The notes below the pieces were generated by a model that did not search any database, had not been told where the DNA came from, and saw only the letters and a list, made by a program, of their open reading frames with translations. The position numbers were made by a program, and so were the translations under genes. A stretch of 49,901 bases of DNA from an uncultured Bacteroidaceae bacterium (GTDB lineage: Bacteria; Bacteroidota; Bacteroidia; Bacteroidales; Bacteroidaceae): assembly GCA_905235305.1 (NCBI GenBank), contig CAJOLC010000002.1:1-49901 (forward strand), given 5' to 3'. Below, piece after piece: positions 1,888 to 39,855 of this stretch. The first letter of the stretch is position 1; each line of letters opens with the position of its first letter.

Positions 1888-1967
1888 GGGTTGCTTGAAC
1901 ATACATGTATATTCAATTGCAGGTTCATGAATATTCAATTGCACATACATGTATGTTCAAACAACCC
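1888..1967. repeat. Modular 22-nt-period palindromic element, copy A
   Basis: The structure is GGGTTGCTTG, module AACATACATGTATATT (1898-1913), CAATTG, module CAGGTTCATGAATATT (1920-1935), CAATTG, module CACATACATGTATGTT (1942-1957), CAAACAACCC. Each 16-nt module has CATG at its centre. The outer arms 1888-1919 and 1936-1967 are complementary at 29 of 32 positions, so the RNA could form a long hairpin. It sits downstream of mutS2 and upstream of the zinc-ribbon promoter. It is nearly identical to copy B and shares its central block with copies C and D. The rest of 1777-2128 shows nothing else that I can support. Confidence 0.85.
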
Positions 1968-15624: not shown

Positions 15625-15698
15625 TTGCTTGCACATACATGTATATTCAATTGCAGGTTCATGAATATTCAATTGCACATACATGTATGTTCAAACAA
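15625..15698. repeat. Modular 22-nt-period palindromic element, copy B
   Basis: The structure is TTGCTTG, module CACATACATGTATATT (15632-15647), CAATTG, module CAGGTTCATGAATATT (15654-15669), CAATTG, module CACATACATGTATGTT (15676-15691), CAAACAA. It differs from copy A by one base in the shared part. Arms 15625-15653 and 15670-15698 form a long imperfect hairpin. It lies 22 bp after the RNase Z stop. The rest of the 357-bp gap holds the promoter of the next operon and nothing else recognisable. Confidence 0.85.
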
Positions 15699-21114: not shown

Positions 21115-21190
21115 GTTCGTTGCAGCATCATGAACCTGCAATTGAATATTCATGAACCTGCAATTGCAGCATCATGAACCTGCAACGAAC
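21115..21190. repeat. Modular 22-nt-period element, copy C
   Basis: The structure is GTTCGTTG, module CAGCATCATGAACCTG (21123-21138), CAATTG, module AATATTCATGAACCTG (21145-21160), CAATTG, module CAGCATCATGAACCTG (21167-21182), CAACGAAC. The two outer modules are identical and in the same direction, so this copy is more a tandem array than a hairpin. The central module is the exact reverse complement of the one in copies A and B. It lies between convergent genes and may also stop transcription, but there is no T-run. Confidence 0.85.
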
Positions 21191-21269: not shown

Positions 21270-21923
21270 TTATATGAACGCTTGCAGGAGGGTCCTCAGA
21301 TGCCCCTCTCTGCCTACGTCCAGCCATGCCCCTTGCAGACCTTCCTTTATGGCGGCCTCGACGTTCAGGAGGGTGTCGTCGATGAAGAGGCATTGCTCTG
21401 CACGACGTCCGATCTGCTGAACTGCGAGACGATAGATGGCAGGGGAAGGCTTTGCCAGATGCATTTCGTGCGAGACAAAGACACACTCGAAGAGGTCCTC
21501 GAGGGTGTATCCCTCTGCCATGAAAAAGCGCCGCTTTATCTCCTCCCAATGCAAGTCGTTGGTGTTGGACAGCAGGTGTGTGTGGTAACCTTTACGCCGC
21601 AGTTCCTTAATCAGGTCGAGGCGCCATCGGGGAATCTGTCCGATGCAGGCGTTCCATGCCTTAATCACGTCCTCGCGCATGATGCCATTGCTGCAATGGC
21701 TCAGTACAAGTGAGAGGAATTCATCACTCGTCATGTTGCCAACCTGGTAGGCTGTGATGGCTTTGCTTGCTGAGATGCCTTGGCAGACAGTAGAGGTGTT
21801 GTCTTCGTCAATCTTCACGAAAAACAGTTCCGGATTGATGCCGAGGCGTTTACAGGCTTCTCCGATACCCTCCATATTGAGGTCGAGCAGCACACCTCCA
21901 AGGTCAAAGATGATGTCGGTCAT
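21270..21923 (-). CDS. HAD-family phosphatase (subfamily IA), last gene of the thiamine operon
   Basis: The 217-residue protein has HAD motif I as FDLGGVLLDL near the N-terminus (the nucleophile Asp, with Gly where the usual acid Asp would be two residues on, as in YihX-like proteins). Motif II is in HLLSNT, the Lys of motif III in HLAKPSPAIY, and motif IV in CLFIDDTLLNVEAA. It should dephosphorylate a small metabolite. Its ATG overlaps the stop of the ThiE-like gene by 4 bp, tying it to the thiamine operon. A role in removing phosphate from a thiamine intermediate is possible but not shown. Confidence 0.85.
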   Translation of the reverse strand: MTDIIFDLGGVLLDLNMEGIGEACKRLGINPELFFVKIDEDNTSTVCQGISASKAITAYQVGNMTSDEFLSLVLSHCSNGIMREDVIKAWNACIGQIPRWRLDLIKELRRKGYHTHLLSNTNDLHWEEIKRRFFMAEGYTLEDLFECVFVSHEMHLAKPSPAIYRLAVQQIGRRAEQCLFIDDTLLNVEAAIKEGLQGAWLDVGREGHLRTLLQAFI

Positions 21924-27811: not shown

Positions 27812-28618
27812 CTAATTCTTGAAAATCAGTTTCACGGGGCCATGACCATGGCCTATCTCGTAGTCTGCACCGGCAATGATAGCTTTCGAGATGAAGTCTT
27901 TCGCGCTTCTTGCCGCCTGCTGCAAGCTTTCGCCTTTGGCAAGGGATGCTGCCAGTGCCGACGACATCGTGCAGCCTGTGCCGTGGGTGTTCCTCGTCTC
28001 TACTCTCTGCGATGGCAGAGTGAGCAGTTCCTTCTTCTCGTTGTCGAAGAAAAAGTCTGTCAGAACATTGCCGGAGAGATGACCTGCCTTGAGCAAGACG
28101 GAAACGTCGTACAGCCTTGCGAGCTTCATCGTCGCTTCTTCCAGGGCCTTTTCCGTCTGGATTTCTCCCTCGCCAAGCAGCAATTCAGCCTCCGGGATGT
28201 TGGGCGTGATGACGCGTGCAAGCGGAATGAGTTCCGATTGAAGCGTGGCGACGGCACTCTCTTCTATGAGCCTGTGACCACTCGTTGAGACCATCACGGG
28301 GTCGAGGACAACGTTTCGGATGCTGTATCTGCGCAGCGTTTCTGCCGTAGCTACGACTGTCTCTGCCGACTGAAGCATCCCTATCTTCACAGCATCTGCA
28401 CCGATGTCGCCCAGAACTGCGTCAATCTGTCCCTTCACAATCTCTGGAGGAACGGCATGGACGGCACTGACGCCGACCGTGTTCTGCACCGTCACGGCAG
28501 TGATGGCAGTGGCTGCGTAGCATCCCATCAGCGAGATGGTCTTGATGTCGGCCTGTATGCCTGCACCTCCACCGCTGTCGCTGCCTGCTATGGATAGTAC
28601 TCTTGTATAGTGTTTCAT
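27812..28618 (-). CDS. thiD: Hydroxymethylpyrimidine/phosphomethylpyrimidine kinase ThiD
   Basis: The 268-residue ribokinase-fold enzyme begins with VLSIAGSDSGGGAGIQADIK and has the anion-hole motif THGTGCTMSSALAA near the C-terminus, plus LDPVMVSTSGHRL and ITPNIPEAELLLG. It phosphorylates HMP and HMP-P to HMP-PP, one of ThiE's substrates. It is the first gene of the operon, 58 nt downstream of the TPP riboswitch. It precedes thiS by 58 bp. Confidence 0.95.
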   Translation of the reverse strand: MKHYTRVLSIAGSDSGGGAGIQADIKTISLMGCYAATAITAVTVQNTVGVSAVHAVPPEIVKGQIDAVLGDIGADAVKIGMLQSAETVVATAETLRRYSIRNVVLDPVMVSTSGHRLIEESAVATLQSELIPLARVITPNIPEAELLLGEGEIQTEKALEEATMKLARLYDVSVLLKAGHLSGNVLTDFFFDNEKKELLTLPSQRVETRNTHGTGCTMSSALAASLAKGESLQQAARSAKDFISKAIIAGADYEIGHGHGPVKLIFKN

Positions 28619-28676
28619 ACGTTAAAAGGCCATGATGCGACACATCACGACCTTCTCCTTTCTTGTAGTTTTGCTC

Positions 28677-28757
28677 GACTCAATTCCTACGGCAGTACTG
28701 ACTGCATCAGGTTCGAAGGTATAATCTCAGCCTCTTCATTGAGGCACCCTTTTGATG
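28677..28757 (-). promoter_or_regulatory. TPP riboswitch (THI element)
   Basis: On the minus strand the leader holds the conserved core: GGGTGCC, CTGAGATTATACC, GAACCTGATGCAG and TACTGCCGTAGGAA. This is the pyrimidine- and pyrophosphate-sensing fold of the thi-box. It lies between the TACCTTTG promoter and thiD and should repress the whole nine-gene thiamine operon when TPP is abundant, by masking translation or by termination. No obvious T-run terminator lies before thiD, so translation control is more likely. Confidence 0.95.
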
Positions 28758-28767
28758 TTCGACGTTG

Positions 28768-28976: not shown

Positions 28977-29063
28977 GCGACGCGTCCCTATTGACCGAGC
29001 GACGCGTCCCTCTCGTCAGTGCGACGCGTCCCTTTGGTCAGTGCGACGCGTCCCTATAATTTT
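28977..29063. repeat. Four tandem 22-nt units in an intergenic region
   Basis: Units start at 28977, 28999, 29021 and 29043, each beginning GCGACGCGTCCCT (13 nt identical in all four) followed by nine variable bases such as ATTGACCGA, CTCGTCAGT and TTGGTCAGT. GACGCGTC is itself palindromic. The array lies between the divergent thiamine operon and the UpxY promoter. It is too short-spaced and has no cas genes, so it is not CRISPR. The surrounding 28776-29184 shows no gene. Confidence 0.85.
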
Positions 29064-29184
29064 GACGATGGCAGCGCGGCTGCTATTGGTCTGGTGATTG
29101 CGGATAATTATTTGAGTTATGCCAAAATCTGTTAAATCTCATGTGATTTTAGTTCACTGGTGTCGGAAATCTGAAGGAAATATG

Positions 29185-36737: not shown

Positions 36738-36809
36738 CCTTTGCAGCATCATGAACCTGCAATTGAATATTCATGAACCTGCAATTGAATATTCATGATG
36801 CTGCAAAGG
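36738..36809. repeat. Modular 22-nt-period palindromic element, copy D
   Basis: The structure is CCTTTG, module CAGCATCATGAACCTG (36744-36759), CAATTG, module AATATTCATGAACCTG (36766-36781), CAATTG, module AATATTCATGATGCTG (36788-36803), CAAAGG. The outer arms are complementary at the ends and for 12 of 16 bases in the modules. It lies in a divergent gap, about 85 bp before the 5'-nucleotidase gene and after a possible promoter. Outside it, 36479-36737 shows no credible gene. Confidence 0.85.
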
Positions 36810-39640: not shown

Positions 39641-39789
39641 CTATAAGTCGCTGACCTGCAGCCTTAATGTTGTCTATTGTCTCTTGTTTGTTGCCTGTTG
39701 TCTTGCAACAAAGCAGACGAGGACTTGAATAGCATTGGCCCTCTGGATGGCACGCTATAGAGCTCTGAGAAACGGGCGCTTACAAAGAT

Positions 39790-39855
39790 GACACGCCGAG
39801 TTTGCTGATTCGACGTGCCGAGTTTGCTGATTCGACGTGCCATCTTTATGAAGAT
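39790..39855. repeat. Direct repeat with exact 22-nt period
   Basis: GACACGCCGAGTTTGCTGAT (39790-39809) repeats as GACGTGCCGAGTTTGCTGAT from 39812, and a third unit begins GACGTGCC at 39834 before diverging. The period is exactly 22 nt. AAAGATGACACG on the left (39784-39795) and CGTGCCATCTTT on the right are near-complementary, so the array can also fold back. It lies between the convergent PorT-like and galK genes. The rest of 39641-39922 holds only the galK terminator. Confidence 0.8.

Follow-up and report, generated by a model that had tools for sequence, protein, structure and literature searches.

Genomic Context of the Four Elements

The window, by which the whole analysed stretch of 49,901 nucleotides is meant, belongs to the draft genome of an uncultured Bacteroidaceae bacterium, here designated G000, with other G numbers denoting relatives. 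Its genes include mutS2, ribosomal protein S1, RNase Z and a gene for a RelA/SpoT protein. A first-pass annotation, made from the letters alone, had described four intergenic elements in this stretch, and all of them are present at the positions listed in Table 1, where the motif CAATTG-N6-CATG-N6-CAATTG matches at 1914, 15648, 21139 and 36760; across 200 mononucleotide shuffles of the window the motif occurred a mean of 0.0 times. The 28-nt centre is the same in all four elements, just as had been claimed, with two elements in each orientation. Scanned against Rfam 15 at the gathering cut-off, the window yields only a TPP riboswitch and one tRNA, and the elements themselves remain unmatched. 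CCTTGCT-like heptameric repeats were seen by eye at 1851-1880 and beside one side of several arrays.

Table 1. Positions of the elements and accompanying features in the window
Feature	Position	Core or structure	Neighbourhood
Element 1	1888..1967	66-bp core 1895-1960 = 3 x 22 bp, plus 7-bp inverted arms	168 bp past mutS2 ORF
Element 2	15625..15698	core 15629-15694	25 bp past RNase Z stop codon
Element 3	21115..21190	core 21120-21185	flanked by convergent genes: ORF ending 21016, HAD-like hydrolase 21270-21923
Element 4	36738..36809	core 36741-36806	ORF starting 36895 begins 88 bp downstream
TPP riboswitch (Rfam)	28667-28761, minus strand		upstream of ORF 27812-28618
22-bp array of another family, GCGACGCGTCCC...	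28977..29064	about four units	
22-bp array of another family, CGACGTGCCGAGTTTGCTGATT	39789..39854	about three units	

Unit Architecture and Copy Number

Each element consists of three head-to-tail 22-bp units of the form TTG-N6-CATG-N6-CAA, or, seen more finely, of six 11-bp half-sites, TTG-N6-CA, in alternating orientation. The natural unit is this 22-bp one, not the 16-nt module of the earlier layout. The period of 22 nt stands; its equation with two turns of B-DNA needs correcting, as B-DNA has 10.5 bp per turn and 22 bp lies closer to 2.1 turns than to 2.0.

The draft of G000 comprises 2,481,587 bases in 89 contigs and is 88% complete. A genome-wide scan with the motif returned 117 matches, against 0 for the reversed control, so the four elements of the window are far from being the only copies. 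Units were counted in 421,577 bases of this genome, mostly stretches picked for holding a copy: of the 39 arrays, 38 consist of exactly three 22-bp units and one of four; a 40th match with an exact unit is a single unit and looks like chance. Across five species, 122 of 135 core-family arrays are built of exactly three units, a figure in which two-unit arrays are under-counted because the search motif covers one unit plus half of each neighbour. Some copies in G000 lie fewer than 300 bases from contig ends (C12:278, C13:260, C34:252, C45:234, C59:2, C70:181), as do copies in G020 (C42, C43, C44); assemblies may break at such copies, and true copy numbers may therefore be higher. Among the open-access PMC papers listed by searches aimed at the element, none describes it in its title or the opening of its abstract.

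The core pattern in G000 is that of inverted caps enclosing a direct 22-bp repeat. The half-words at the two ends match one another (0.917 vs 0.604 in shuffles), and those two steps apart match as well (h3=h5 0.886, h2=h4 0.825); the inner hairpin pairs show no match above shuffles (0.618 vs 0.626 and 0.566 vs 0.630). Two centre types occur within one array in 6 of 39 cases, and inner units, judged by eye, are often more similar than outer ones. The word-swapping noted in the first-pass annotation is real, but its scope was drawn too narrowly, since relatives use other words and other centres. Around the core, the copies have a common arm (GGGTTGT, CA-NNN-TG) and a 22-bp pattern phased with the core, with a column-profile correlation at lag 22 of 0.67 within 110 bp and of 0.39-0.40 from 110 to 330 bp. 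Two recurring arm types, one of them heptameric, can be told apart by eye; short inverted arms are present, conservation fades outward without a sharp edge, and no complementarity of left and right flanks past the core was found over shuffles.

Distribution Across Genomes

Among 61 scanned genomes (G000 itself, 36 of its genus and 24 of its order), 12 have matches, every one within the genus, so that the motif occurs in 12 of 37 genus genomes with G000 included. The copies per matching genome are 124 (G020), 117 (G000), 42, 23 (G005), 21 (G035), 13, 4, 3, 2, 1, 1 and 1. In a class-wide sample of 395 genomes, G000 was joined by three others with one match apiece (3/394). Among 41 genomes sampled in the genus, 3 reach at least 90% completeness with at most 5% contamination. 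Phage cargo was considered as an identity and rejected, the 12 IMG/VR contigs that match the motif being about what chance would give, as estimated from the size of the collection.

Conserved Frame, Variable Words and Broken Palindromes

At frame positions that the search does not force, mismatches number 0/560 in G000, 7/630 in G020, 6/294 in G005, 1/336 in G027, 4/168 in G035 and 16/112 in G013. The middle letters of the words, 3 and 4, have heterozygosities of 0.41-0.66 in five relatives. Perfectly palindromic 22-bp units are scarce. Five species together have 8 among 416 units, where free re-pairing of halves would give about 104; by species the counts are 3/129, 1/62, 1/71, 2/34 and 1/120, with 39.1, 9.7, 16.3, 5.0 and 34.2 expected in the same order, contrasts that are inflated because copies in a genome share ancestry and their counts are non-independent. 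The deficit in G035 (2 vs 5.0, P 0.09) is not significant, and G013, which stands outside the five-species count, has 4 perfect palindromes among 15 units and breaks the frame rule as well as the palindrome rule.

Letter by letter, the two halves of a unit match below shuffles at letters 3 and 4 in G005 (0.14 and 0.17 vs 0.33 and 0.36) and in G027 (0.15 and 0.15 vs 0.36 and 0.31), and junction halves also fall below shuffles at some letters in G000 and G027. Within units, matches above shuffles occur at letter 2 in G020, G027 and G035, at letter 6 in G000 and G027, and at letter 3 in G035. In 100 units of an unrelated family, centred on GGTTAACC, identical five-letter words make up 2% vs 10.6%, and the letter beside GG matches at 0.31 vs 0.48. 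A site bound by a dimer and purged of hairpins would be expected to keep a palindromic frame while its halves mismatch, and this pattern suits a functional hairpin less well; an ancestral asymmetric unit that was copied often would also resemble palindrome avoidance.

Hairpin RNA, Terminator and Other Possible Identities

One alternative holds that the element is a structured RNA, a terminator or an extruded hairpin, whose long fold would be processed, would end transcription or would be recognised as DNA. The predicted fold is indeed strong (mean z -6.9 over 76 folds of 38 elements), and the matching end half-words of G000 fit a hairpin. Agreement between the variable letters 3 and 4 of opposing half-words points the same way in part, with the end pair 1-6 matching in G000 (0.89 vs 0.51), in G020 (0.82 vs 0.70) and weakly in G035 (P 0.024), and pair 2-5 matching in G005 (0.60 vs 0.36, P 0.003); against it, no hairpin pair matches at these letters in G027 or G013, and the three pairs jointly exceed shuffles in 0 of 6 species (G035 P 0.06, G027 below shuffles). 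Covariation of modules across the hairpin, which the first-pass annotation had proposed as a check, is accordingly patchy, being found for single pairs in some species and for the three pairs jointly in none. The rarity of perfect units also counts against this alternative, as do the absence of an Rfam match at the cut-off, sub-threshold matches being nearly all to microRNA families, and the near absence of a T-run, which follows the element within 22 bp in 1 of 78 sides. Separate terminator-like hairpins lie between the stop codon and the array for 13 of 35 cores and for 4 of 23 other arrays, whereas 3' ends lacking an array have one in 2 of 44 cases; no such hairpin turned up in the terminator scan around element 1.

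The hairpin evidence is mixed, and we consider a hairpin function in any of these forms improbable. A terminator in particular is unlikely: the view that the element is not one agrees with the missing T-tail, and an intrinsic terminator was rejected as an identity, separate terminator-like hairpins lying upstream in part of the cases. A CRISPR array was rejected likewise, the units being contiguous and without spacers. Of the two readings offered at first, a protein-site array or a processed hairpin RNA, the second is weakened by the patchy pair matching together with the T-run and Rfam results, and the first is favoured by the conserved frame, the variable words and the rarity of perfect dyads in five of six species.

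A Wider Class of Arrays at 22-bp Pitch

The CAATTG family is one of many families with a 22-bp pitch. Other arrays are centred on GGTTAACC, CTGCAG, CACGTG, GCGCGC, GACGCGCGTC and others, with unrelated letters. In intergenic DNA more than 300 bp from cores, identity at lag 22 is 0.299, compared with an all-lag mean of 0.262 (sd 0.010) and with 0.248 in ORF-masked coding DNA. In stretches chosen for holding copies, lag 22 accounts for 57 of 74 tandem arrays in G000, 25/44 in G027, 9/12 in G035, 6/9 in G005, 4/10 in G020, 2/3 in G013, 2/2 in G012 and 1/7 in G018. Lags 8 and 14 are the next most frequent in G000. In contiguous stretches, scanned at lags 15-30 with only non-coding hits retained, lag 22 makes up 29/29 hits in G012 (436 kb), 27/27 in G024 (244 kb), 22/26 in G000 (168 kb), 8/11 in G017 (200 kb), 3/6 in G013, 2/3 in G008 and 1/2 in two other genera (80 kb). 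All of these counts depend on lag-identity thresholds chosen by the authors, and hits at different lags may share one locus. A stricter scan found two arrays at lag 22 in five congeners (132 kb); the two arrays that it detected in nine genomes outside the genus (220 kb) both had lags other than 22.

The other families share a weak lattice, as 34 of their non-redundant 22-mers reach an information of 11.06 vs 8.58 (sd 0.20) in 20 shuffles given as many restarts as the data. Their unit number of about three is bounded from below by the detection window, which sets a minimum of 2.8 units; 42 of 56 arrays of G012 and G024 stay within that floor. Dyads are modestly enriched in them: z is 1.04 in 65 such arrays and 2.78 in 82 core arrays, with some loci overlapping, and dyads at P<=0.05 occur in 18% of the 65 other-family arrays and in 5% of 77 arrays at other lags. 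By genome, dyad z is 1.74 in G012, 1.43 in G024 and 2.37 in G017, and, from few arrays, 0.52 in G013 (3 arrays) and 1.29 in G008 (2 arrays).

Orthologous gaps can carry different letters at the same pitch. Downstream of RNase Z, where G000 has a CAATTG array, 22-bp arrays with other letters were found in G035, G008, G013 and G025; the lag test gave hits in G035, G008 and G025, and lag 21 in G013. This comparison rests on 11 usable loci among 12 inspected, of 30 collected, with the mislocated locus of G005 left out, and by eye no array was seen in this gap in G012, G024, G004, G014, G033 and G021. The convergent gap at 21.0-21.3 kb of the window holds a GGTTAACC array in both G012 and G024, and past mutS2 a CACGTG array is present in G035 and none in G024. 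Between relatives this distant the gaps show no alignment by eye, and some coincidence of arrays in the same gap is to be expected because arrays fill a large share of large gaps.

Genomic Location and Spacing

With a gene caller scored on coding hexamers, none of 39 cores and none of 23 other arrays in G000 lies inside a gene, while a cruder ORF list overlaps 6 of the 39 cores; in the contiguous sets of G012, G024, G017 and G000, absence from genes holds by construction because only non-coding hits were kept. The median distances in G000 are 108 bp to 3' ends and 213 bp to 5' ends for cores, and 101 bp and 242 bp for other arrays. Between tandem gene pairs in G000, 26 of 32 arrays are closer to the upstream stop; in the contiguous sets, the corresponding counts are 9/16 in G012, 11/15 in G024, 2/5 in G017 and 8/11 in G000, so that the preference for 3' ends is weak in G012 and G017.

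Arrays also keep apart at short range. On 13 contigs all core copies are at least 3.8 kb apart (of 34 spacings, 8.3 would be expected to be shorter), and 15 core spacings in G020 span 4.8-11.3 kb, both cut-offs having been picked post hoc. Spacings under 2.5 kb, a cut-off that itself followed earlier looks, number 1 of 78 in four genomes, against 11.0 under a gap null and 15.1 under a uniform null, with 0 of 1000 simulations equally low under either; both nulls exclude spacings under 300 bp. Different families are included in this avoidance, with 1 of 23 other-family arrays lying less than 2.5 kb from a core, compared with 8.7 expected under uniform placement (P 0.0005) and 4.2 in core-free gaps (P 0.018). 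Core spacing is even in G020 (CV 0.25 vs 0.80, from 15 spacings with the extents of three contigs interpolated), as is the spacing of all arrays in G000 (CV 0.50 vs 0.87). Long-range evenness is absent from G012 and G024 (P of the CV 0.18 and 0.51 under the uniform null, 0.26 and 0.88 under the gap null), where undetected arrays may also blur it; even spacing over long range was therefore set aside, and only short-range avoidance is claimed.

Placement near 3' ends raises the question of DNA gyrase, which might load on or wrap around these arrays as it does at BIME-2 of Escherichia coli, absorbing positive supercoils past transcription units. BIME-2 is described as binding gyrase (PMC2817692), and the accessible part of PMC6379681 describes an E. 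coli gyrase motif that is symmetric, about 130 bp long and marked by a GC period of 10.75 bp, with cleavage enriched downstream of highly transcribed operons. The arrays resemble this motif in being symmetric and helically phased, their flanks carrying the 22-bp pattern in phase with the core, and in lying where gyrase is found, past transcription units. The motif differs, as far as that source describes it, in having degenerate GC phasing without repeated sequence units; the flanks of the arrays have peaks of GC power at 12.0 and 11.75 bp and lower power at 10.75, and their AT-rich 66-bp core (GC 0.30-0.34) exceeds the 36-bp centre of the gyrase motif (PMC6379681). The same source states that enrichment past transcribed units is not hard-wired in sequence. 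A gyrase site is accordingly considered a slim prospect.

Proposed Interpretation

We tentatively interpret each array as a DNA site for typically three protein dimers bound side by side at 22-bp pitch, a reading to which we give slightly less than an even chance. Dimeric protein binding is the simplest mechanism that would keep pitch, unit number and frame as the letters turn over and would also disfavour self-complementary units. The putative protein would contact a short mirror-image frame in each unit (TTG......CA / TG......CAA), and the letters between contacts, being little read, would drift and be swapped. The two halves of a unit would tend to stay different, which would make perfect hairpins rare. 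Triplets may have been copied whole between intergenic regions and units duplicated within triplets, and between species the letters would turn over while pitch, unit number and dyads persist. Placement near gene 3' ends, seldom close together, suggests that the sites help to organise or insulate the chromosome, perhaps as a topological barrier. What the data establish is the family, its pitch, the unit number in the core family, the conserved frame, the scarcity of perfect dyads, the location and the avoidance at short range; the protein, its binding as a dimer, the cause of the broken dyads and the function are inferred. Diffusible supercoils are said to travel within 10-kb domains, according to the accessible part of PMC3420936, and a role as supercoil barrier or loading site is plausible.

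The main rival explanation is a selfish or neutral minisatellite of the BrickBuilt or MITE kind, spread by duplication, gene conversion or an unknown transposase and tolerated in untranscribed gaps with no host function. Such a repeat would readily explain why a few half-words are common to many copies in one genome and are replaced in the next species, why inner units are often more alike than outer ones (by eye), as in tandem arrays, and why G012 and G024 have a short gap at the site of a G000 array, and BrickBuilt itself offers a precedent (PMC4596501, in its accessible part). Neutral decay, in contrast, would not be expected to hold the number of units at three in most core arrays, to conserve the frame at unforced positions, to make arrays of the same and of different families avoid each other or to keep the pitch while the letters change. 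In these drafts, moreover, the presence of a Y1 transposase does not track copy number. We regard the selfish repeat as a substantial possibility, though on balance a doubtful one.

A broader extension of the dimer-site interpretation would define a class of sites by geometry, with about three 22-bp dyads, a mirror frame and non-complementary halves, read either by fast-evolving proteins or by one tolerant protein. Such sites would act as architectural or topological boundaries that mark where transcription units end, and selection would hold them apart. This generalisation is speculative, and we think it rather unlikely as a whole.

Interspersed repeats of bacteria are as a rule identified from their sequence. 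Here it is pitch and dyads that survive the replacement of letters, joined in the core family by unit number and frame, and this holds even in orthologous gaps within one genus. Should a protein read these sites, each genome would offer many natural variants for learning its binding code, and the arrays would show how binding sites spread over a whole chromosome can turn over; should they be selfish, they would form a minisatellite that follows unusually strict rules. In both cases, a repeat finder that relies on sequence would catch only pieces of the class.

Comparison with Known Systems

REP and BIME elements of gammaproteobacteria are described, in the accessible part of PMC2817692, as intergenic imperfect palindromes in more than 100 copies, with alternating orientation and a modular mosaic structure, for which protein-binding and chromosome roles have been suggested. 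The present elements are like them in their more than 100 intergenic copies, their imperfect palindromes, their alternating orientation and their modular mosaics, and differ in their fixed 22-bp pitch and AT-rich core. A GT(A/G)G head within 16 bp was found in 18 of 78 arms, against 15.5 in shuffled arms. The best matches to a Y1 transposase came from G022, G027, G000, G013 and G032, of which G022 and G032 are without core copies, and Y1 was unmatched in G020, G005 and G035, incomplete drafts that hold 124, 23 and 21 copies; none of the four Y1 loci collected contains a core unit. A RAYT/REP identity was rejected on these grounds, the head being absent and Y1 presence not tracking copy number as far as the drafts allow. 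Three of the four Y1 loci (L127, L129, L130) do have a 22-bp array from one of the other families, at a distance of about 1 kb or less from the Y1 gene.

MetJ boxes are tandem 8-bp operators at few promoters, where one dimer binds each box cooperatively. They are similar to the arrays in having dyads both in the middle of a box and between boxes; the elements described here differ in their 22-bp pitch, in their position mostly near 3' ends and in their many sequences.

The nearest precedent found comes from Porphyromonas gingivalis, which we take to belong to the same order as the genus of the window. The accessible part of PMC4596501 describes BrickBuilt as an intergenic, dispersed minisatellite-MITE built on a spacer-less tandem repeat of about two helical turns, with a 23-nt unit, 1 to 22.8 repeats and 19 copies in ATCC 33277, together with a leader of up to 285 nt and a tail of up to 318 nt. 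Direct repeats of 23 nt were sought in the present genomes, and no array at lag 23 was found in G012, G024 or G000, with one each in G008 and G017. Compared by description, BrickBuilt and the arrays reported here are alike in being intergenic and dispersed, in lacking spacers and in having flanks partly common to their copies, but the present elements have a pitch of 22 bp, mostly three units, more than 100 copies and many unrelated families.
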